From Haloarchaeobius salinus (GTDB lineage Archaea > Halobacteriota > Halobacteria > Halobacteriales > Natrialbaceae), in contig NZ_JANHAU010000001.1 of the NCBI RefSeq assembly GCF_024464185.1, positions 558,001 to 622,000 on the forward strand: a stretch of DNA of 64,000 bases, written 5' to 3'. A program made the position numbers and the translations under genes. Below, piece after piece: positions 29,116 to 40,360 of this stretch (position 1 is its first letter; every line of letters begins with the position of its first letter). The notes below the pieces were generated by a model. It ran no database searches, was not told the origin of the DNA, and worked only from the letters and a program-made list of their open reading frames with translations.

Positions 29116-29245
29116 CGTCGCCTCCGTCCTCCGCCGCCTCGTCGTCGTCGTCCCCCGCGGCCCGGTGCTCCGCGAGCGTCTCGCGCACCTCCGCGACAGT
29201 CACGTCGTAGCTCGCGGCCCGGTCGAACAGCTCGCCCCAGCTCAT
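29105..29245 (-). CDS. 46-residue acidic protein in the aldolase operon
   Basis: The product begins MSWGELFDRAASYDVTVAEVRETLAEHRAAG and ends in an Asp/Glu-rich tail. It has one predicted amphipathic helix that resembles a small dimerisation or antitoxin-like element. ATG overlaps the upstream stop (29242-29245), and its own 3' end overlaps the PIN-like gene by 11 bases. That double overlap is the main evidence that it is real. Confidence 0.65.
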   Translation of the reverse strand: MSWGELFDRAASYDVTVAEVRETLAEHRAAGDDDDEAAEDGGDDER

Positions 29246-30105
29246 CGTGCGGCCCGCACGAGTTCGGCGAGTTCTGTCGTGGTGGCGTCGTCGACCGGCT
29301 GGAACGGTCGCCGGACGTGGCCGGCGGGCAGCGACCGCGACCGCATCGCGGCCTTCAGTCCGGGGATGCCGTAGCGAGCGGTGACCGCACGGTTCAGCTC
29401 GACCAGCGAACGGTTCAGGTCGCGTGCGCCGTCGGTGTCGCCGTCGGTGTGGCGGTCGTAGATCTCGCTCGCGAGTTCGGGGACGACGTTCGCCAGCGCG
29501 AGCACCCCGCCGTCCGCGCCGTGGTCGAGGCCAGCGGCGTAGATGCTCCCGCTCCCGACGAGCACGGAGAAGTCGGCGTCCCCGGTGAGGGAGACGGTCC
29601 GCTGGAGCCGTTCGAGGTTCCCGCTCGAGTCCTTGATGCCGCCGACGTTCGGGTGCGTCGAGAGCGCCTCGACGGTTCGCGGGTCGAGCGGCGTCTCGGT
29701 GTACTTCGGCACGCTGTAGAGGAATATGGGGATGGGGCTCTCGTCTGCGAGCCCGCGGTAGTAGGACGCGAGCGCGGCCTGGTCGTGCCGGAAGTAGTAG
29801 GGAGTGACCACGAGTGCGGCGTCGGCACCGGCCGCGGCGGCGGCCTCGGTGTCGGCGAGCGTCTCGCGGTAGCCCGGCTGGCCGGTGCCGGCGAGGACGG
29901 GCACGTCGCTCCGGTCGGCGACGACCTCGACGACGCGCCGGCGCTCCGTCGCGGTGAGCAGTGGTGCCTCGCTGTTCGACCCGCACGGGACGACGAAGTC
30001 GACGCCGGCGTCGGTGACCCGGTCGACGAGGTCGGAGAGCGCAGGTTCGTCTATCTCGCCCGTCTCGTCGAAGGGCGTCACGAGCGGCAGTCCGGTGCCT
30101 TCCAT
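29242..30105 (-). CDS. DapA/NAL-family lyase (Schiff-base aldolase)
   Basis: This 287-residue TIM-barrel aldolase has the Schiff-base Lys in GGIKDSSGNL and the catalytic Tyr in TPYYF. Where true dihydrodipicolinate synthases have Gly-Thr-Thr-Gly-Glu, this protein has PCGSNSEAP, so it may use another 2-oxo acid, for example 2-keto-3-deoxygluconate. ATG 30105 gives the family start MEGTGLPLVTPFDE. It leads an operon with two overlapping small genes. Confidence 0.82.
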   Translation of the reverse strand: MEGTGLPLVTPFDETGEIDEPALSDLVDRVTDAGVDFVVPCGSNSEAPLLTATERRRVVEVVADRSDVPVLAGTGQPGYRETLADTEAAAAAGADAALVVTPYYFRHDQAALASYYRGLADESPIPIFLYSVPKYTETPLDPRTVEALSTHPNVGGIKDSSGNLERLQRTVSLTGDADFSVLVGSGSIYAAGLDHGADGGVLALANVVPELASEIYDRHTDGDTDGARDLNRSLVELNRAVTARYGIPGLKAAMRSRSLPAGHVRRPFQPVDDATTTELAELVRAAR

Positions 30106-30183
30106 GCTCTGAGTGAGTCGGTGGGGCGACAAAAACGAACCGCTGGCGGGTATCGTCGCCACCGTGTGACGAACGTCTGACGT

Positions 30184-30290
30184 AACTTTAAGGCCGACCG
30201 AGGACACCCATCGGTAGGGCGCGCACGACGGCCTCGAACTCCCATCCTACGCGTCGCGCGCCCGGTAGCTGTCTCTCCCCCCTTTCCACT
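30184..30290 (+). ncRNA. Candidate structured small RNA
   Basis: A TATA box (CTTTAAGG, 30186-30193) with no start codon downstream predicts RNA starting near 30212. There GGGCGCGC (30217-30224) pairs with GCGCGCCC (30256-30263), extended after a two-base bulge by GACG/CGTC (30227-30230 and 30252-30255), closing a 21-base loop. A pyrimidine-rich tract with TTT (30270-30286) follows. No open frame explains it. The same hairpin could also act as terminator of the minus-strand trkA-like gene. Confidence 0.4.
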
Positions 30291-30297
30291 GTCGCGA

Positions 30298-30954
30298 TCA
30301 GGCAGCGGTGAGCGCCTGCCGGACCGAATCCACGCCGGTCTGCTCGACGACGACCGCGAGCCGGTCACCGGCCTCGATCGACGTCGAGGGGAGCGGAATC
30401 GTGAGCGGGCCGTCGCTCGGCCCGTGGGCGTAGACGCGTGCCTGCTCGGGCAGGTCGACCTCGACGACGCGCTTGCCGACGAGCTGTGAGTCCTCGGGGA
30501 TCTCGAAGACGGAGAACTGGAGGTTCTCGGTCACGTCCGCGAGGACGTTGAAGTCGCCGCCGAGCATCGCCGTCTTCGCGCCCGCAGCGCCGAGGCGCTC
30601 GGGGTAGATGACCTCGTCGACGTCGCTGGCGTACTTCTCGTAGATGTCCTCGCGGTAGTCCTCGTCGATGCGGAGGACGGTCCGCGCGCCGTTGTGCTTC
30701 CCGATCATGCAGGCGGTGAAGTTCGCGTTCAGGTCGGGCGTGAGCGCGGCGATGGCGTCGGCGTCGGCGATGCCGGCCTCCTCCAGGACGTCCTCGTCCT
30801 CGGCGTCGCCCTCGACGACGGTGAACCCGTCGTGGCGTGCGCGCTCGACGCGGTCGGGGTCGTTGTCGACGACGACGACGTCGTGGCCCTCCTCGCCGAG
30901 GATGCGGCAGGTTCTCGTTCCGACGCGACCGTATCCCACGATAACGAACTTCAT
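30298..30954 (-). CDS. trkA: TrkA-type potassium channel/transporter regulatory subunit
   Basis: The product has 218 residues. RCK_N (about 1-125) has a Rossmann fold MKFVIVGYGRVGTRTCRIL with the acidic residue after strand 2 (VVDNDPDR), so it should bind NAD(H) or ATP. RCK_C (about 135-218) ends the protein. It would gate a K+ transporter such as TrkH from the cytosol; no membrane subunit is adjacent. ATG 30954 has a strong TATA (CTTTTTTACC on the minus strand, about 30976-30986). Confidence 0.88.
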   Translation of the reverse strand: MKFVIVGYGRVGTRTCRILGEEGHDVVVVDNDPDRVERARHDGFTVVEGDAEDEDVLEEAGIADADAIAALTPDLNANFTACMIGKHNGARTVLRIDEDYREDIYEKYASDVDEVIYPERLGAAGAKTAMLGGDFNVLADVTENLQFSVFEIPEDSQLVGKRVVEVDLPEQARVYAHGPSDGPLTIPLPSTSIEAGDRLAVVVEQTGVDSVRQALTAA

Positions 30955-31153
30955 GCTGGTGGGTACGCGAGCGGGGGGTAAAAAAGATAGTCCCGGGACA
31001 GCGTGGCGTCGTTCCACGGGCGTCTCGTCGACCGGTCCCGACCGTCGGGTGTGCTCGGGGAACTTGAACCCACTGCTCTGACAGGCTGAAACTGCCGTCC
31101 CCGTCCGATTTCCACCACGTAAGTTTATCTATGACCGTTTGTTAGACGAGGTC

Positions 31154-32416
31154 ATGAGTGGCAATCGCACTCCAGCGACGGTGGACAGGCGCACGATCCT
31201 GCGGGCGGCAGGGGCAGCGGGCATCGGCGGGCTCGCTGGCTGTCTCGGTGGCGGTGGCGGCGAGGGAGGGGCGAACGAGCTGACGGTCGGGTTCGCCACG
31301 TCGACCTCGGGCCCGTTCTCGGTGTTCGGGCAGTCGGCCATCGACGGGGCGATGCTCGCGGTCGAGGACCTCGAGTCGGAACTCGACGTCAGCATCGACG
31401 TCGAGACCGGTGACACGCAGCTCGACCCACAGACCGGTGTCAGCCAGCTCCAGCGGATGGTCACCGAGGCGGACGCGGACTTCACGATGGGTGGTGTCTC
31501 CTCGAGTGCGGCACAGGCGATGGCGTCGTGGGCGAACGAGAACGAAGTCGTCTACATGCCGACGGGTGCACACGGCGACGGGCTGACCGGGGACGCGTGC
31601 GGGCCGTACACGTTCCGCCCGACGGCGTCGAACTCGATGCTCGCGGCGACCATCGGCGCGGAGATGGCCGAGGCCGCGGACAGCTGGTACCTCCTGTACT
31701 CCGACTACGCGTGGGGACAGACGGCACAGGAGGCGGTGACCCGTATCCTCGAGGACCAGGGCATCGAGGTCGTCGGCCGGTCGGCGACGCCGTTCCCGGC
31801 GGACGACTACTCGCCCTACCTGAACGAGGCGGACAACTCCGGGGCGGACGGCATCGGGATGCTCATCGCCGGGCTGGACCTCCGGAAGGCGGCGAACCAG
31901 CTGGTCTCCCAGGGGATGCAGGGCGACTACACCCTGGCGATGCACCAGCTGGAGGACGCGGTCTTCTGGGGACTCGACCGCGACTCCGCCGGTATCCTCG
32001 ACACGGCCGGACAGGTCTGGGGGCCGGCGATCGACACCGACGCGAGCGTCGACTTCTGCGAGCGGGTCGCCGAGAGCTCCGAGACCGACCCGTACGTCCG
32101 GCACTTCCTGGGCTACCTCTCGATGGACCAGGCGGTGCGGGCGGCGGTGCGGGCGGACTCGACGAACGCAGACGACATGCGCGGGGCGCTGGAGGGCCAC
32201 GAGGTCAGCTCCGTCGCCGCCGACATCAAGGGCGACGGGGCGGAGATGTACTGGCGCGAGGGCGACCACCAGCTCATCCAGCCGACCTACAGCGTCGAGG
32301 CACTCCCGGTCGGGGAGATGTCCGGCGACCCCTACAAGCGGTGGTTCCAGACCGTCAACACGTTCGAGGGGGACGACGTGGCGCGCTCGGTGTCCGAAAC
32401 CGGTTGCTCGATGTAA
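31154..32416 (+). CDS. LIV-type ABC transporter substrate-binding lipoprotein
   Basis: The product has 420 residues. A Tat signal with twin Arg (DRRTILRAAG) ends in a lipobox (GLAGC, Cys about 28), so it is exported folded and lipid-anchored. The mature part is a Peripla_BP_6 domain starting ELTVGFATSTSGPFSVFGQSAIDGA. It begins a seven-gene operon with both permeases, both ATPases and lactate-utilisation genes, so the ligand may be lactate or a related 2-hydroxyacid rather than an amino acid. TATA box GTTTATCT (31123-31130) is 24-31 bases before ATG 31154. Confidence 0.9.
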   Translation: MSGNRTPATVDRRTILRAAGAAGIGGLAGCLGGGGGEGGANELTVGFATSTSGPFSVFGQSAIDGAMLAVEDLESELDVSIDVETGDTQLDPQTGVSQLQRMVTEADADFTMGGVSSSAAQAMASWANENEVVYMPTGAHGDGLTGDACGPYTFRPTASNSMLAATIGAEMAEAADSWYLLYSDYAWGQTAQEAVTRILEDQGIEVVGRSATPFPADDYSPYLNEADNSGADGIGMLIAGLDLRKAANQLVSQGMQGDYTLAMHQLEDAVFWGLDRDSAGILDTAGQVWGPAIDTDASVDFCERVAESSETDPYVRHFLGYLSMDQAVRAAVRADSTNADDMRGALEGHEVSSVAADIKGDGAEMYWREGDHQLIQPTYSVEALPVGEMSGDPYKRWFQTVNTFEGDDVARSVSETGCSM

Positions 32417-32419
32417 TCG

Positions 32420-33439
32420 ATGAGTACGACGGAACTCACTCGGGAAGATCTCGCGACGGTCTCGCCGGGTTGGTGGGCTGTGGCGGTCCTGACCGTGGTC
32501 CTGCTCGCGCTCGCGTTCGCCGTCGAGCCCGGGCTGTTCATCGACCAGGCCATCGGCGGGCTGGTGTACGGGATGGTGCTCGTGCTCGTCACGCTCGGGC
32601 TGTCGCTCATCCTCGGGCTGATGGGCATCGTCAACTTCGCCCACGGCGCGTTCTTCATGCTCGGGGCGTACCTCTCGTACTCGGTCGTCGTCACGCTCGG
32701 ACTGCCGTTCTGGGCGGCGCTGATACTCGCGCCGCTCGTCGTCGGCGTGGTCGGCGTCGTGCTGGAGATGACCGTGCTGCGGTACCTCTACGGCTCCGAC
32801 CCCATCGTCAGCCTGCTCGCGACGTTCGGGCTGACGATGATGATCGAGGAGGTCATCCGGGCGTACTGGGGGACCGCGCCGCTCGAGATCTCCCGACCGG
32901 CGGTGCTCACGCGCGGGACCGACCTCGGGGTGACGACGGTGCCGACCTACCGGCTGTTCCTGGTGGGTGTGGCGGTCGTCACCATCCTGGCGGTGTACCT
33001 GCTCATCTCCCGCACCGACTTCGGGCTCACGGTCAGGGCCGGCGTGCAGGACGGCGAGATGACCGAGTTCGTCGGCGTGAACCTCCCGGTGCGCTTCACC
33101 GCGATGTTCTTCCTGGGGGCGGCGCTGGCCGGCTTCGCGGGCGTGCTCTACTCCGCCGAGACGGGGATGCGGACGACGATGGGAGAGACGTTCGTCATCC
33201 TCGCGTTCGTGGTCGTCGTCGTCGGTGGCGTCGGGAGCCTGTTCGGGAGCGTGGTGAGCGGCATCCTCATCGGCGTCTCGGCGTACCTCACGCCGGTCGT
33301 GCTCACCGCGCTCGCGGAGGTGACGAACCAGCCGTGGCTGGCGCTCCAGATACGTGACCTCGTCCCGTACCTGGTGATGATACTCATCCTGCTGTACCGG
33401 CCACGGGGGCTGTTCGGCGAGGAGGGGTTCCTCGAATGA
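32420..33439 (+). CDS. livH: LIV-type ABC transporter permease, LivH-like
   Basis: The product has 339 residues and about nine membrane helices. LGLSLILGLMGIVNFAHGAFFMLGAY is the hallmark of LivH permeases, and VVVVVGGVGSLFGSVVSGILIG forms the last part of the domain. It starts 3 bases after the binding-protein stop and overlaps livM by 4 bases (ATGA). The symbol refers to family, not proven substrate. Confidence 0.9.
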   Translation: MSTTELTREDLATVSPGWWAVAVLTVVLLALAFAVEPGLFIDQAIGGLVYGMVLVLVTLGLSLILGLMGIVNFAHGAFFMLGAYLSYSVVVTLGLPFWAALILAPLVVGVVGVVLEMTVLRYLYGSDPIVSLLATFGLTMMIEEVIRAYWGTAPLEISRPAVLTRGTDLGVTTVPTYRLFLVGVAVVTILAVYLLISRTDFGLTVRAGVQDGEMTEFVGVNLPVRFTAMFFLGAALAGFAGVLYSAETGMRTTMGETFVILAFVVVVVGGVGSLFGSVVSGILIGVSAYLTPVVLTALAEVTNQPWLALQIRDLVPYLVMILILLYRPRGLFGEEGFLE

Positions 33440-34548
33440 GCGGCGAGACGGCGACCGGCGAGGGATCGACCGAGACGCTCGACCGCGCCCGGTCGCTGCT
33501 CTGGCGCTATCGGGTCCCGGTCGGTCTCGTCCTGGTCGTCCTGCTGTTGCGTCCGGTCATCTCGCACCCGCTCCTGCTCGGCTACGAGGCCATCGCGGCG
33601 ACCATCCTCATCTGGATGGTGTTCGTCGCGGCGTTCAACCTCCTGTTCGGCTACGCGGGACTGCTCTCGTTCGGGCACGCGATGTTCCTCGGCTTCGGGA
33701 TGTACGCCGCCGCCATCGGGGTCTCCGGTCGGGCCGGCGCACCCGAGCTGCCGTTCCCGGTCGCCGCGGCCATCGGCATCGCGGTCGCCGCGACGGTCGG
33801 CTACCTGCTCGGACGGCTCACCGTCGAGAAGGGCGAGATCTACTTCGCATTCCTCACGCTGGCGGTCGCGCAGGCGGTCGAGTTCACCGCGAACCGGAAC
33901 CCGCTGAACCTGACCGGCGGCTCGAACGGGGTCACGCAGAACGTGCTGCCGTCGTGGGTCGAGTCGACCCGCGGCCAGCTCGTCGTGGTCCTCGGCGGCC
34001 TCGAGGTCGACTGGTACTGGTTCGTCTCGGTGGTGTTCCTCGTCGCGATGCTCGCGCTCTGGCAGATCGTCCGCTCGCCGTTCGGGCGGTCGCTCGTCGC
34101 CATCCGCGAGAACGACGACCTCGCGCGGGCGATGGGTATCGACACGAAGCGGTACAAGGTGCAGGCGTTCACCGTCAGCGCCGCGTTCTCGGCGCTCGCG
34201 GGGTCGGTGCTGATGGTCGACCGGTACGGCGCGTCGCAGGAGACCCTCAGCGTCATCACCAGCGGCGACACCGTCCTGATGGCCGTCCTCGGCGGGGTCC
34301 GGTACTTCTTCGGCCCCATCGCGGGCGTGTTCGTCTGGCAGTTCGCCGAGGAGTTCCTGAACGACTTCGAGGTGCTGCACCTCGGGGTCACGAGCGTCGA
34401 CCTCTCGGGAGTGCTGACGCACTGGCACTTCTTCCTCGGCGCGCTGTTCGTCGTCATCGTCGTGGTCGCCCCGCTGGAGGGCATCTGGGGCTACCTCCGT
34501 GACTGGGCACGCGGGCTGTACGCCCGCCTCAAGGGGGTGGCCGAATGA
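33436..34548 (+). CDS. livM: LIV-type ABC transporter permease, LivM-like
   Basis: The product has 370 residues and about ten helices. NLLFGYAGLLSFGHAMFLGFGMY is the LivM signature, and the EAA-like cytoplasmic loop SPFGRSLVAIRENDDLARAMGI contacts the ATPases. Overlaps livH and livG by 4 bases each, so translation is probably coupled. Confidence 0.9.
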   Translation: MSGETATGEGSTETLDRARSLLWRYRVPVGLVLVVLLLRPVISHPLLLGYEAIAATILIWMVFVAAFNLLFGYAGLLSFGHAMFLGFGMYAAAIGVSGRAGAPELPFPVAAAIGIAVAATVGYLLGRLTVEKGEIYFAFLTLAVAQAVEFTANRNPLNLTGGSNGVTQNVLPSWVESTRGQLVVVLGGLEVDWYWFVSVVFLVAMLALWQIVRSPFGRSLVAIRENDDLARAMGIDTKRYKVQAFTVSAAFSALAGSVLMVDRYGASQETLSVITSGDTVLMAVLGGVRYFFGPIAGVFVWQFAEEFLNDFEVLHLGVTSVDLSGVLTHWHFFLGALFVVIVVVAPLEGIWGYLRDWARGLYARLKGVAE

Positions 34549-35363
34549 GCGACGCCACCGGGCCGGAGGCGACCAGCTCCGTCGACCCGAGGCTCGATCC
34601 GGCCGACGCCGCGTTGGCGACCGAGGGGCTCCGCCGGACGTTCGGCGAGGTCACCGCGGTCGACCGTGTCTCGCTGGGCGTCGAGCGCGGCGAGCTCCGG
34701 GCCATCATCGGTCCGAACGGTGCGGGCAAGACGACGCTGTTCAACACCGTCATGGGGACGCTCCCGCCGACCGACGGCCGGGTGTACCTCGACGGCACGG
34801 ACGTGACCGACCGCGACGAGCACGAGCGGCCACATCTCGGGCTCGCACGGTCGTTCCAGTCGAACGAGCTGTTCGAGGACCAGACCGTACTGGAGAACGT
34901 CCGCGTGGTCGTCCAGACGACCCGGCGGGGCGCGTTCAGCTTCGACCTGTTCCGCGACCACCGCTCGGTGGGGCGGGACCGCGCGCTCGAACTGCTCGAC
35001 ACGGTGGGGCTCGACGCGCCGCCGTCGACGCTCGCGAAGAACCTCTCCCACGGCGACCAGCGCCGGCTCGGTATCGCGATGGCGCTGGGGACCGACCCAG
35101 CGGTGCTGTTGCTCGACGAGCCCACGTCCGGGATGAGCCCGGGTGCGACGACGGCGACGGCGAACCTCATCGAGGAGATACGGGACGAGCTCGGGCTGAC
35201 GGTGGTCCTCATCGAGCACGACATGGACGTCGTGCTCTCCATCTCGGACCGCATCTCGGTGCTGAACCGCGGCTCGCTCATCGCGACCGGGCCACCCGAC
35301 GAGATACAGGCGAACGACGCGGTACAGGACGCGTACCTCGGCGGTATGCGGGAGGAACTATGA
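34545..35363 (+). CDS. livG: LIV-type ABC transporter ATPase, LivG-like
   Basis: The product has 272 residues. Walker A GPNGAGKTTL, Q-loop in ARSFQSNELF, signature LSHGDQRRLGIA, Walker B VLLLDEPTSG, and His switch VLIEHDMDVV are all present, so it should be active. The N-terminal 25 residues are an acidic extension. Overlaps both neighbours by ATGA. Confidence 0.92.
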   Translation: MSDATGPEATSSVDPRLDPADAALATEGLRRTFGEVTAVDRVSLGVERGELRAIIGPNGAGKTTLFNTVMGTLPPTDGRVYLDGTDVTDRDEHERPHLGLARSFQSNELFEDQTVLENVRVVVQTTRRGAFSFDLFRDHRSVGRDRALELLDTVGLDAPPSTLAKNLSHGDQRRLGIAMALGTDPAVLLLDEPTSGMSPGATTATANLIEEIRDELGLTVVLIEHDMDVVLSISDRISVLNRGSLIATGPPDEIQANDAVQDAYLGGMREEL

Positions 35364-36118
35364 GTTCGGAACCCGAGGCACACACGACCACGGAGACGAC
35401 GGAACCGACCAGCACACTGCTCGAAGTCGACGGCCTCGAGGCCGGCTACGACACCGGACAGGTGCTGTTCGACGTGGACCTCGCCATCGACGAGGGCGAG
35501 CTCGTCTCCCTGCTCGGGCGAAACGGCGCGGGGAAGACGACGACGATGCACGCCATCATGGGCGCGGACGAGCCGGCGGTGCTCGGCGGCGACGTCCGCT
35601 ACCGGGACGAGTCCATCGTCGGCTGGCCGTCCCATCGGCGCGCGAACGCCGGCATCGCCATCGTCCCGGAGAAGCGGCGCTGTTTCCCGCGGCTCTCGGT
35701 CGTCGAGAACGTCCGGCTCGCCATCAACCACGCCGAGGCCCCGCTCGGGCTGGACGAGACGCTCGAGTTCTTCCCCGAGCTCGACGACATGCGACGGAAG
35801 GAGGCCCGGAACATGAGCGGTGGCGAACAGCAGATGCTCGCCATCGCCCGCGCGCTCGCGGCGAACCCGGACCTGATGCTGCTCGACGAGCCGTTCGAGG
35901 GGCTCGCGCCCTACATCGTCCGGCGCATCGAGGACATCGTCGCCGACATCAACGCGGAGAAGGGCGTGACGGTGTTCTTCGTCGAGCAGAACGTCGCGGC
36001 CGCCCTCGCCATCGCGGACCGTCACTACGTGCTCGACGAGGGCCGCATCGTCGACGAGGTGACGAGCGACCGCATCCGCGAGGACGAGGAGTTCCGTCAG
36101 CGATACCTCGGTGTGTGA
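35360..36118 (+). CDS. livF: LIV-type ABC transporter ATPase, LivF-like
   Basis: The product has 252 residues. Walker A GRNGAGKTTT, the LivF-typical VPEKRRCFPRLSVVENV, signature MSGGEQQMLAIARAL, Walker B LMLLDEPFEGLAP and His-switch region replaced by VFFVEQNV, where Gln is standard for LivF. It pairs with LivG. The stop overlaps the GTG start of the LUD gene, tying transporter and catabolic genes into one unit. Confidence 0.92.
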   Translation: MSSEPEAHTTTETTEPTSTLLEVDGLEAGYDTGQVLFDVDLAIDEGELVSLLGRNGAGKTTTMHAIMGADEPAVLGGDVRYRDESIVGWPSHRRANAGIAIVPEKRRCFPRLSVVENVRLAINHAEAPLGLDETLEFFPELDDMRRKEARNMSGGEQQMLAIARALAANPDLMLLDEPFEGLAPYIVRRIEDIVADINAEKGVTVFFVEQNVAAALAIADRHYVLDEGRIVDEVTSDRIREDEEFRQRYLGV

Positions 36119-36648
36119 CCGTGTCCTCGACAGTGACAGTCGCAGACGACTTCCTGGACGCGCTTTCGGCCCTCGACGTGTCCCACGACCGGACGACGCT
36201 CGCCGACCTCGAGGCGACACTCGCCGACGCGGTCGACGAGCCGGCGGTCGGCGTCCCGCTGCACGTCGACGCCGACCTGCCCGACGCGGTCGCCACGACG
36301 TTCACGCCGAGCGAACTGCAGGACGCTGCGACGGGGGTCACGCCCGCCCGCCTCGGCATCGCGGAGTACGGGAGCGTCCTGATCCGGTCGAGCGCGGGCG
36401 GCGACGAGCCGGTGAGTCTCTCCCCCGAGCGCCACGTCGCGGTGCTCGCCGCCGAAGACGTCGTTGCGACGGGCCGCGACGCGGTGGACTGGCTGGCCGA
36501 CGAGGTCGCCGCCGGCCGGGGCTCGCACGTGCTCGCGACCGGTGCCTCCGCGACCGCCGACATGGGCGGGCTCGTCGAGGGCGTCCACGGCCCGAACGAG
36601 GTCCACGTCGTGCTCGTCGAGGACGACGAGGAGGTGGGCGACGAATGA
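36115..36648 (+). CDS. lutC: LUD-domain protein, LutC-like
   Basis: The product has 177 residues. The LUD (lactate utilisation) fold shows LGIAEYGSVLIRS, HVAVLAAEDVV and the C-terminal GASATADMGGLVEGVHGPNEVHVVLVED. LutC works with LutA and LutB to oxidise L-lactate to pyruvate in bacteria; its own chemistry is unclear. The start is GTG 36115 overlapping the livF stop; GTG 36121 is an alternative. Overlaps the next gene by 4 bases. Confidence 0.85.
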   Translation: MTVSSTVTVADDFLDALSALDVSHDRTTLADLEATLADAVDEPAVGVPLHVDADLPDAVATTFTPSELQDAATGVTPARLGIAEYGSVLIRSSAGGDEPVSLSPERHVAVLAAEDVVATGRDAVDWLADEVAAGRGSHVLATGASATADMGGLVEGVHGPNEVHVVLVEDDEEVGDE

Positions 36649-38858
36649 GCTCCGAACGCAAGCAGAAGGCGGCACACATCCGCCACCTGCTCGAGACGGA
36701 GGGACCGCTCATCGGGCCGAAGGTCAGCTCGAAGAACCGCGACCGCTACGCCGCGGCGGAGCGCTTCGAGGCGTGGGATGGTACCCGCGACGAGGCCCGC
36801 GCCATCAAGGAGGCGGCCATCGCGGACCTCCCCGAGCTGATCGAGCAGCTCCGCGAGTCCGTCGAGGCGAACGGCGGCACCGTCTACGTCGCCGACGACG
36901 CGGCCGACGCCAACCGCTACGTCACCGAGCTCTGCGAGGAGCAGGGCGCGGAGACGCTGGTGAAGTCGAAGTCGATGACGACGGAGGAACTCGAGCTGAA
37001 CGACGCGCTCGAGGCCGCCGACGTCGACACCTACGAGACGGACCTCGGGGAGTTCGTGATACAGCTCGCCGACGAGTCGCCGAGCCACATCGTCGGGCCG
37101 GCGCTGCACAAGTCCCGCGAGGAGATCGCCGACCTGCTGAACGCGACGTTCGAGCCCGACGAACCGCTGGAGACGGCCGAGGAGATGACCCGGTTCGCCC
37201 GGGACTACCTCGGCGAGCGGATCCGCGAGGCCGACGTCGGCGTGACGGGCGCGAACTTCGTCTTCGCGGAGTCGGGTTCGATGGCGCTCGTGACCAACGA
37301 GGGCAACGCCCGGAAGTGCGCGGTGACGCCGGATACGCACGTTGCCGTCACGGGCATCGAGAAAATCCTGCCCTCCGTCGACGAGTTCGGTCCGTTCGTG
37401 GACCTCATCTCGAAGGCGGCGACCGGACAGGACATCTCCAGATACGTCTCCCTGTTCACGCCGCCGACCGCGTCGCCGACGCTCGACTTCGAGTCGGACG
37501 AGCCCATCGACTTCGGCGACCCGACCGCCGAAACCGACGACCCCGACGGCGACCGCGCGTTCCACCTCGTCCTGGTCGACAACGGCCGCACCGAGATGCG
37601 CGAGGACGACCAGCTCCGGGAGACGCTGTACTGCATCCGATGTGGCGCGTGCTCGAACTCCTGTGCGAACTTCCAGGCCGTCGGCGGCCACGGCTTCGGC
37701 GGCGAGACGTACTCCGGGGGCATCGCCACCGGCTGGGAGGCGGGCGTCCACGGTATGGAGAGTGCAGGGGAGTTCAACGACCTCTGCACCGGCTGTTCGC
37801 GCTGCGTCGACGCCTGCCCGGTGAAGATCGACATCCCGTGGATCAACACGGTCGTCCGCGACCGGCTGAACCGCGACGCCGACCCGGACACGTTCGACCA
37901 CCTGGTCGACGGCCTCTCGCCGGACGAGGAGCCGTCCGGGCTCGCGCTGGACAAGCGCCTGTTCGGGAACTTCGAGCGGCTGGCGAAGCTCGGCAGCGCG
38001 ACCGCGCCCGTCTCGAACTGGCTGGCCGACGCCGGCCCGGTGCGGGCCGGGATGGAACGCTTCCTCGGCGTCGACCGGCGGCGCGACCTGCCGCGGTTCC
38101 GGCGAGAGACGCTCGTCGACTGGTTCGACGACCGGGGGCCGCGTGTCTCGTCGGACGACGCCGACCGCGAAGCCGTCCTCTACCCCGACGCGTACACGAA
38201 CTACGTGCTGGTCGACCGCGGGAAGGCGGCCGTCCGGGCGCTGGAGGCGCTCGACGTTCGGGTCCACGTGCCCCGCGTCCGGTCCTCCGGGCGCGCACCG
38301 CTCTCGCAGGGGATGATCTCGACCGCGGAGGACCACGCCCACCACGTCTACGCCGGGCTGGCCGAGCACATCGACGCCCGGCGCGACGTGGTGGTCGTCG
38401 AGCCGTCCGCGCTGGCGATGTTCGAGCGGGAGTACGAGCGCCTGCTGGCCCCGAAGTCGGCCGAGCGGCTCGCCGACGCGAGCTACGAGGTCATGGAGTA
38501 CGTGTACGGTATGCTGGAGAACGGCGGCTCGCCCGACGCGCTGGCGACTCCGCCCGAGGCCGTCGCCTACCACAGCCACTGCCAGGGCCGCACCCTGGAC
38601 CTCGAACCGTACACCGTCGCCGTGCTCGAGGCCTGCGGTGCGACGGTCCGCACCTCCGACGTGGAGTGCTGTGGCATGGCCGGGAGCTTCGGCTACAAGG
38701 AGGCCTACTACGAGCTGAGCATGGACGTCGGCGAGGAGCTCGCCGACCAGTTCGCCGACGAGCCGGTCGTCGCCGCCAGCGGCACCTCCTGTCAGGAACA
38801 GCTCGATGCGCTGCTCGGCGGCGAGGTGCCACACGCCGTCGAGTTGATCGCGCCCTGA
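36645..38858 (+). CDS. LutB-LutA fusion: LUD, double [4Fe-4S] ferredoxin and CCG domains
   Basis: The product has 737 residues. About 60-300 is a LUD domain (VGVTGANFVFAESGSMALV). Ferredoxin-type clusters are at CIRCGACSNSC (from Cys330) and CTGCSRCVDACP (from Cys381). The last 300 residues are the LutA/GlpC-like oxidoreductase part, with a cysteine-rich domain (HCQGR, ECCGMAGSFGY). The fusion should pass electrons from lactate or another 2-hydroxyacid to the respiratory chain. It is last in the transporter-lut operon; its final 67 bases overlap the converging lipoprotein gene. Confidence 0.88.
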   Translation: MSSERKQKAAHIRHLLETEGPLIGPKVSSKNRDRYAAAERFEAWDGTRDEARAIKEAAIADLPELIEQLRESVEANGGTVYVADDAADANRYVTELCEEQGAETLVKSKSMTTEELELNDALEAADVDTYETDLGEFVIQLADESPSHIVGPALHKSREEIADLLNATFEPDEPLETAEEMTRFARDYLGERIREADVGVTGANFVFAESGSMALVTNEGNARKCAVTPDTHVAVTGIEKILPSVDEFGPFVDLISKAATGQDISRYVSLFTPPTASPTLDFESDEPIDFGDPTAETDDPDGDRAFHLVLVDNGRTEMREDDQLRETLYCIRCGACSNSCANFQAVGGHGFGGETYSGGIATGWEAGVHGMESAGEFNDLCTGCSRCVDACPVKIDIPWINTVVRDRLNRDADPDTFDHLVDGLSPDEEPSGLALDKRLFGNFERLAKLGSATAPVSNWLADAGPVRAGMERFLGVDRRRDLPRFRRETLVDWFDDRGPRVSSDDADREAVLYPDAYTNYVLVDRGKAAVRALEALDVRVHVPRVRSSGRAPLSQGMISTAEDHAHHVYAGLAEHIDARRDVVVVEPSALAMFEREYERLLAPKSAERLADASYEVMEYVYGMLENGGSPDALATPPEAVAYHSHCQGRTLDLEPYTVAVLEACGATVRTSDVECCGMAGSFGYKEAYYELSMDVGEELADQFADEPVVAASGTSCQEQLDALLGGEVPHAVELIAP

Positions 38859-40360
38859 GCGGATGAGACATCGGCAGCCGTGAGGCGACTGTTTTCCGGG
38901 TGGATCTCCGACAGCGCCGACCGGTCGGGCCCGTTCACGATGGTCACCGTCTCGCCCGTGACGTGCACGGAGAAGGCGTCGGCGAACTGGCCGTCGGGGA
39001 CGACCCAGTGCCCGCCGTCGCGCCGGTCGGCGTCGTGGTACCGGAGCAGCTCCCTGTAGGTGTCGGCGAACTCACGAGCCTCGGCGTTCGAGTCCCACTC
39101 GATGCGCCAGACGTAGCCCGTCTCGTCGCCGTTGCGGTAGGCGTACAGGCGGTCGCCGCCCCAGCCGGCGCTGGGGGCGAGATCGTAGGTGAGCTCCGGG
39201 CCCGGGCCGTCCTGGCGGAGGAACGCCTCCCGCGTGACGAGGCTCCCGTCGCGGTCGTCGTACAGTGTGTAGGCGAACATCGTCGCGAGGCTCGCCTCGC
39301 CGAGGGTCCGACCGGACCGCTCGCCGGCGGTGACGCGCTCCCAGTCGTCGCTGCTGCGGTCCGGTACCGAGACGGCTTCTGGCTCGTCCGGGTCGGGCCC
39401 CCAGTGGATGACCTGCTCGCTCGACAGCGGCGGCTCCCGGTACAGCTCGGCGACGCCGTCCCAGCCAGCACGCTCGTACACGTCGGCGACCATCGACTCC
39501 CCGGCGGCGTACGGGAAGTACGACTGGAGGTAGATGCCGAGGTTCGGGCCGGCACGGTCGGCGGCTGCGTCGTCGTCACCGCTCCCGTCGTCGGCTCCGT
39601 CGCCGCTGCTCTCGTCGGTCCAGTCGCTCCGACGCAGGCAGTCCCACTCCTCGCCGCAGCGGGCCTCGTAGCGCCGCTCGGCGAAGTTCGCGTCGCCCTC
39701 GATGAGCGCCCGGAGCGCGACGACGCCGTCCTGCGAGATGTTCTGGGGGACGCGGGTCTGACGAAGCGGTCCACGGAACTGGTAGGCGTGGACGAGCTCG
39801 TGGCCCAGCGTCAGCTCCGCGAGTCTGGGCGTGTCGGAGTCCGAGATGACGACGATCCGGTCCTGCTGCGTGTCGTAGTAGCCCTGCACCGACGCCTCGC
39901 GAGTCGCCTCCTCCGCCTCGCCCGCGTCGGTCGTCTCGCCGACGACGAACAGCGCCTCGAGCTCGGCCGCCCGTTCGATGGCTGCGGCGCGCTGGGTGGC
40001 CGTGGGCGAGCCGTCCCCACCGCCGCCGGCACTGTACTCGGAACGGTCGATGACCTCGACGTGGACGGGCTCGTCGAACTCCACGTCCCTGACGACCTCG
40101 ACGCGGGCCATCGCCCGGGCGACGACGGCCTCCAGCTCGGCCTCGGTCAGGCCGTCCTCGGGGTCCACGTCCAGCGACTCGTTGTGCCAGTAGCCGCGTT
40201 CCCAGCCCTGTACGTCGGTCGTGGGGTCGCCGACGGTCGGGTCCGCGGCGAGCGAGTCGTCCCCCTCGGGCGGGTCGGCCTCCTGTGCGCCCAGTGCGGT
40301 ACAGCCGGCCAGCGCGACCAGCGACAGCGTGACGACGACGAGCAGCGAGGACCTGCGCAT
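38792..40360 (-). CDS. Hvo_1808 family surface lipoprotein with HELVH motif
   Basis: The product has 522 residues. A signal peptide with lipobox (ALAGC, Cys about 20) is followed by YWHNESLDVDPEDGLTEAELEAVVARAMARVE, the N-terminal block of the Hvo_1808 family. LGHELVHAYQFR is an HExxH zinc-protease-like motif, and LIEGDANFAERRYE lies downstream as a possible third-ligand region. It is a larger homologue of 4450-5931. The C-terminal 22 codons are antisense to the end of the lutB-lutA fusion; the tail there is low-complexity. Confidence 0.8.
   Translation of the reverse strand: MRRSSLLVVVTLSLVALAGCTALGAQEADPPEGDDSLAADPTVGDPTTDVQGWERGYWHNESLDVDPEDGLTEAELEAVVARAMARVEVVRDVEFDEPVHVEVIDRSEYSAGGGGDGSPTATQRAAAIERAAELEALFVVGETTDAGEAEEATREASVQGYYDTQQDRIVVISDSDTPRLAELTLGHELVHAYQFRGPLRQTRVPQNISQDGVVALRALIEGDANFAERRYEARCGEEWDCLRRSDWTDESSGDGADDGSGDDDAAADRAGPNLGIYLQSYFPYAAGESMVADVYERAGWDGVAELYREPPLSSEQVIHWGPDPDEPEAVSVPDRSSDDWERVTAGERSGRTLGEASLATMFAYTLYDDRDGSLVTREAFLRQDGPGPELTYDLAPSAGWGGDRLYAYRNGDETGYVWRIEWDSNAEAREFADTYRELLRYHDADRRDGGHWVVPDGQFADAFSVHVTGETVTIVNGPDRSALSEIHPENSRLTAADVSSAQGAINSTACGTSPPSSASSCS

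Follow-up and report, generated by a model that had tools for sequence, protein, structure and literature searches.

ATP-binding cassette (ABC) importers of the LIV/HAAT type (TC 3.A.1.4), represented by LivJ/K-H-M-G-F and UrtABCDE, consist of five parts and are linked to amino-acid or urea metabolism. L-Lactate oxidation is the task of LutABC/LldEFG and of the fused LdhGH type, and in many haloarchaea the genes of the latter are linked to LctP, a secondary transporter unrelated to the ABC importers. Here, we analyzed a window of 64,000 nucleotides from Haloarchaeobius salinus (assembly GCF_024464185.1, contig NZ_JANHAU010000001.1, positions 558,001 to 622,000, forward strand), in which five LIV/HAAT genes are followed directly by a lutC gene and a lutB-lutA fusion gene. 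We consider it likely that these seven genes form one scavenging and oxidizing operon, in which a LIV/HAAT-type importer brings in lactate, and perhaps pyruvate as well, for a quinone- or ferredoxin-linked L-lactate dehydrogenase.

The importer and enzyme genes

All seven reading frames are open at the coordinates below, and frames, coordinates and Pfam families bear out the earlier sequence-only reading of the window, in which a substrate-binding protein (SBP), LivH, LivM, LivG, LivF, LutC and LutB-LutA were placed consecutively on one strand.

31124..31131, plus strand: archaeal TATA-like element, TTTATCTA (sequence read; putative function)
31154..32416, plus strand: SBP, substrate-binding lipoprotein, Peripla_BP_6 (Pfam), predicted lactate binder, ATG start
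32420..33439, plus strand: LivH-type permease, BPD_transp_2 (Pfam)
33436..34548, plus strand: LivM-type permease, BPD_transp_2 (Pfam)
34545..35363, plus strand: LivG-type ATPase, ABC_tran and BCA_ABC_TP_C (Pfam)
35360..36118, plus strand: LivF-type ATPase, ABC_tran (Pfam)
36115..36648, plus strand: LutC/LldG/LdhG-like LUD-domain protein, LUD_dom (Pfam), GTG start
36645..38858, plus strand: LutB-LutA fusion of LdhH architecture (LUD, 2x[4Fe-4S] and one CCG module), putative large subunit of L-lactate dehydrogenase (Pfam, NCBIfam)

The SBP and LivH genes are separated by 3 intervening bases (TAATCGATG), and the later junctions, from LivH to LutB-LutA, are 4-base overlaps reading, in order, ATGA, ATGA, ATGA, GTGA and ATGA. 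These junctions were read directly and agree with the spacing given in the sequence-only reading. The N terminus of the SBP carries a twin-arginine-like signal and an LAGC lipobox.

The Peripla_BP_6 SBP, the two BPD_transp_2 permeases and the two ABC_tran ATPases, encoded in one operon, make up a full LIV/HAAT set, which shares with the described importers its five parts, their Pfam families, the SBP-H-M-G-F order and the SBP fold. It differs from them in its linkage to lactate oxidation and in that all five transporter subunits score below the equivalog and subfamily cut-offs of the NCBIfam Liv and Urt models. Parts and fold place the system among the LIV/HAAT importers, whereas the curated cut-offs exclude it from the Liv and Urt systems.

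The enzyme half pairs LutC, which matches Pfam LUD_dom, with a fusion that matches LUD_dom, the 4Fe-4S dicluster and a C-terminal CCG domain (CCG at 20.1 bits, just under the cut-off of 20.6). The domains are those expected of the LutB-LutA fusion claimed in the sequence-only reading, a description that we refine to the known LdhH architecture with LdhG/LutC as partner. The nearest NCBIfam model is that of LdhH (NF045670, quinone L-lactate dehydrogenase large subunit; 421.7 bits, 5e-126), with a score below the equivalog cut-off of 800 bits, which marks a related architecture and not an equivalog as curated. The fusion has two CxxCxxCxxxC motifs and a CCG module whose cysteines are conserved, and C330/333/336/340, C381/384/387/391, C646, C675-676 and C716 are invariant in an alignment of eight haloarchaeal sequences. 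The locus thus shares with LutABC/LldEFG and the fused LdhGH a LutC-type LUD protein and a LUD-[4Fe-4S]2-CCG fusion, an arrangement present across haloarchaea. In contrast to those systems, the fusion falls below the LdhH cut-off and only its second CCG module keeps cysteines; the first lacks them in 8 of 8 haloarchaeal homologues aligned.

Of the 392 genomes of the order, 345 had an LdhH match (E <= 1e-60), some of which may be weaker relatives, and LutC adjoined LdhH in all 20 loci examined. LctP lies within 8 kb of at least 45 of 149 LdhH genes among the matches listed, all in different genomes, and a pair of LldG and a LUD/Fe-S protein has been proposed as the lactate dehydrogenase of lactate-enriched haloarchaea (PMC8966722). 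The LctP linkage and this proposal together suggest lactate as the substrate of the LutC-LdhH pair in haloarchaea.

Conservation of the pairing and partner enzymes in the SBP clade

The seven-gene order is present in 6 of 6 Haloarchaeobius species examined (SBP identity, 69 to 100%; nearest named loci, those of H. iranensis and strain FL176), and in the five congeners examined the junctions downstream of LivH could, with few exceptions, form the same 4-base overlap, so the arrangement goes beyond chance; at one congener locus (L086) LutC starts 2 bases after LivF. An operon unique to one genome was considered and rejected, since the order was found in congeners and in further haloarchaea. LIV-LutC-LdhH loci also occur in Halorubellus salinus, where a reading frame on the opposite strand separates livF from lutC, in Haloferacaceae archaeon XH8, with a 47-base gap, and in the metagenome-assembled genome (MAG) QS_1_68_17, with an 83-base gap. 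Linkage in related genomes, which the sequence-only reading had proposed as a check on itself, was therefore present well outside the genus. We conclude that the coupling is genuine; it is found in several families and is closest in Haloarchaeobius. The LIV-linked LdhH proteins, taken as one clade, gave an approximately unbiased test P value (p-AU) of 0.113.

SBPs of at least 43% identity to that of the operon were found in 17 of 243 genomes and stood sharply apart from their paralogues, whose identity was about 34% or less. Two sister clades were resolved in a tree of 40 SBPs, with support of 98/97 for that of the operon SBP and 96/93 for the other. Two congeners (G356 and G279) have a second related SBP, 45 to 46% identical, which clusters with proteins from Natronomonas and MAGs and belongs to neither main clade.

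In the clade of the operon SBP, an enzyme of C3 2-hydroxy- or 2-oxoacids lies beside livF or the SBP gene in 12 of 15 loci. The partner is LutC-LdhH in five of the 15 and an Ldh_2 malate/L-lactate dehydrogenase in another five (three Halovenus, two MAGs). Ldh_2 is an infrequent gene in the order, found in only 10 of 99 sampled genomes; a direct search placed Ldh_2 directly after livF in Halovenus rubra. Halorubellus salinus has, in addition to its Lut genes, a GlcD-type oxidase linked to flavin adenine dinucleotide directly upstream of the SBP gene, and the partner in Salinigranum and a MAG is an E1 protein of the pyruvate dehydrogenase (PDH) type. Such enzymes were detected at 2 of 17 control loci of the sister or other group, as weak matches (29 to 39%) several kilobases off, and at none of 47 distant LIV loci, one of which (L194) is the same locus as L120. 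Fisher's test gave P = 7e-10 by locus and 3e-8 when loci were collapsed by hand to lineages; because this test was designed once the pattern was known and was not pre-registered, these values describe the strength of the pattern. Across lineages, C3-acid enzymes are associated with this clade in a non-random way, which is the strongest evidence on the substrate.

These partners bear on the breadth of the substrate range. An importer of a broader or different short hydroxy or oxo acid (pyruvate, glycolate, malate, sulfolactate or branched-chain 2-hydroxyacids), with lactate as a minor ligand, would account for the GlcD-type oxidase, for the Ldh_2 family, which covers malate, lactate, sulfolactate and ureidoglycolate, and for the 2-oxoacid dehydrogenase E1, and LIV-type SBPs with bound 2-oxoacids have been solved (4obb and 4dqd). 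We regard it as unlikely, however, as lactate and pyruvate are the only pair of substrates compatible with all types of partner, and as the partner is LutC-LdhH in four lineages, an enzyme whose usual linked transporter belongs to the lactate permease family. An ordinary importer of branched-chain or other amino acids, lying by chance upstream of the lut genes, is very improbable. Its appeal lies in the LIV/HAAT fold and family of the subunits and in their best sequence matches in the PDB, which carry an amino-acid-binding annotation. Against this, no subunit reaches the Liv or Urt equivalog cut-offs, the operon holds no amino-acid catabolism genes and none were recognized in the clade neighborhoods read, and the association with C3-acid enzymes spans lineages.

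Several observations weigh against a lactate importer coupled to the enzyme pair. The Ldh_2 genes are convergent with livF and hence outside its transcript, and 3 of the 15 clade loci, one of them at a contig end, have no partner of this kind. Haloarchaeal E1 proteins may serve branched-chain 2-oxoacids, which makes the E1 evidence ambiguous. Three Haloarchaeobius congeners also have LctP. Most haloarchaea with LutC-LdhH have no adjoining importer, and the pairing is for this reason lineage specific. A Halorubellus relative (G309) has LutC-LdhH and similar downstream neighbors, yet no importer at the corresponding place; the importer therefore resembles a module that was acquired or lost next to a resident enzyme pair, in a direction that we can only infer.

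The sister clade, the SBP fold and LctP

Across haloarchaea, the 10-kb flanks of the sister SBP clade hold genes for acyl-coenzyme A (CoA) ligase, 3-hydroxyacyl-CoA dehydrogenase, thiolase and DUF35 proteins, and its members probably import fatty acids or other carboxylic acids that are activated with CoA. One such LIV/beta-oxidation locus, with an identical SBP, stands at both ends of JAKCFJ010000004.1 (812,767 bases), as expected of an uncircularized replicon, and tblastn matches to several of its genes come in pieces, as by frame shifts. The proteins of this clade are about 42 to 49% identical to the operon SBP, and a fatty-acid SBP of the same fold has been solved (4n03), so the H. salinus importer might be thought to carry a fatty acid or other CoA-activated carboxylate, with the lut genes as mere neighbors. 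This is extremely unlikely: the two clades split cleanly, by one change on the tree, the lactate-type loci lack a beta-oxidation set, and the clades show fixed differences in candidate pocket loops. These differences include positions 120, 137, 140, 286, 288, 290 and 292, and in the two-clade comparison an inserted His140 is present only in the lactate-type clade. Judging from the fold, we infer that the clade-specific loops (120, 137-140 and 286-292) line the pocket.

The AlphaFold model of the SBP (predicted local distance difference test score [pLDDT], 88) has the type I periplasmic binding fold of LIV proteins and best matches 3i09 (Z 47.6; 369 residues, VIA-align) and 4maa (Z 47.1). Next in rank are complexes with vanillate, 4-hydroxybenzoate and other carboxylates, followed lower down by complexes with the 2-oxoacids 3-methyl-2-oxopentanoate and 3-phenylpyruvate. 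LIV-type SBPs for carboxylates other than amino acids (4evs, 4ey3, 4q6w, 4f8j, 4obb, 4dqd and 4n03) share the fold and bind hydroxybenzoates, p-coumarate and 2-oxoacids; they differ in being 14 to 17% identical to the operon SBP, and none is listed with lactate. Since solved complexes already place such carboxylates in this fold, lactate would be a modest step for it. The proposal of the sequence-only reading, that lactate or a different 2-hydroxyacid is imported to be oxidized at once, gains support as a prediction from the enzymes of the same chemistry beside the importers of relatives. The statement in that reading that this substrate class is not usually linked to LIV systems was too strong, given the complexes with hydroxybenzoates, 3-phenylpyruvate and 3-methyl-2-oxopentanoate; because LIV-type SBPs for non-amino-acid carboxylates, 2-oxoacids included, are already in the PDB, the system is a variant of known parts and not a new category.

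Our literature searches found nothing relevant on a published lactate ABC importer or on lactate use by Haloarchaeobius. A LIV-type L-lactate ABC transporter of Phaeobacter inhibens (PGA1_c12640 region, GapMind) has reportedly been recognized from mutant fitness, and serves here as a lead, not as a test. No such transporter is stated in those parts of PMC9007349 where lactate or Phaeobacter is mentioned.

LctP shares with the importer its linkage to LutC-LdhH, and hence its presumed role. Among the matches listed, LctP (PF02652) had no match in this Haloarchaeobius genome at E <= 1e-20 and was likewise not found in two congeners. Another, Haloarchaeobius sp. G270, has a second lactate system besides LIV-LutC-LdhH, in which a further LutC-LdhH adjoins LctP.

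Transcription, neighboring genes and proposed mechanism

The TATA-like element lies about 26 nucleotides before the ATG of the SBP gene, within a block, CCACGTA(A/G)GTTTAT(C/T)TATG, that is common to four Haloarchaeobius species; it was unrecognizable at the more divergent loci L089 and L116. Its distance from the ATG and its retention in four species suggest that a leaderless or near-leaderless mRNA would carry the presumably co-transcribed genes. Divergently upstream, on the minus strand (29242-31017), are a dihydrodipicolinate synthase (DHDPS)-family aldolase and a TrkA-type potassium regulator, whose place is kept in five congeners. The 3' end of the fusion gene (38792-38858) overlaps tail to tail with an opposite-strand gene (38792-40360, 522 amino acids), a neighbor conserved within the genus with a weak match to DUF6782 metallopeptidase.

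In the proposed mechanism, extracellular L-lactate, and perhaps also D-lactate or pyruvate, would be captured by the lipoprotein SBP and imported by LivH-LivM with the LivG-LivF ATPases at the cost of ATP. LutC and the LutB-LutA fusion, acting as an LdhGH-type enzyme, would oxidize L-lactate to pyruvate, and its Fe-S clusters would relay the electrons to a pool of quinone or ferredoxin or to the respiratory chain. The importer stands where many haloarchaea have a linked LctP; it probably has higher affinity, and should pay off at low lactate.

On balance, we lean toward a distinct haloarchaeal LIV/HAAT clade dedicated to C3 2-hydroxy- and 2-oxoacids (lactate/pyruvate), which would have split from a sister tied to beta-oxidation, been combined repeatedly with LdhGH, Ldh_2 and GlcD-type enzymes, and replaced LctP in some genomes. 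The substrates of most archaeal LIV-type importers have been guessed from a "branched-chain amino acid" annotation, and for this SBP clade a specific and cheaply testable reassignment, to lactate, can be offered. The two sister clades are a natural pair for locating residues that switch specificity, and the lactate-type clade could explain lactate use by haloarchaea without LctP.

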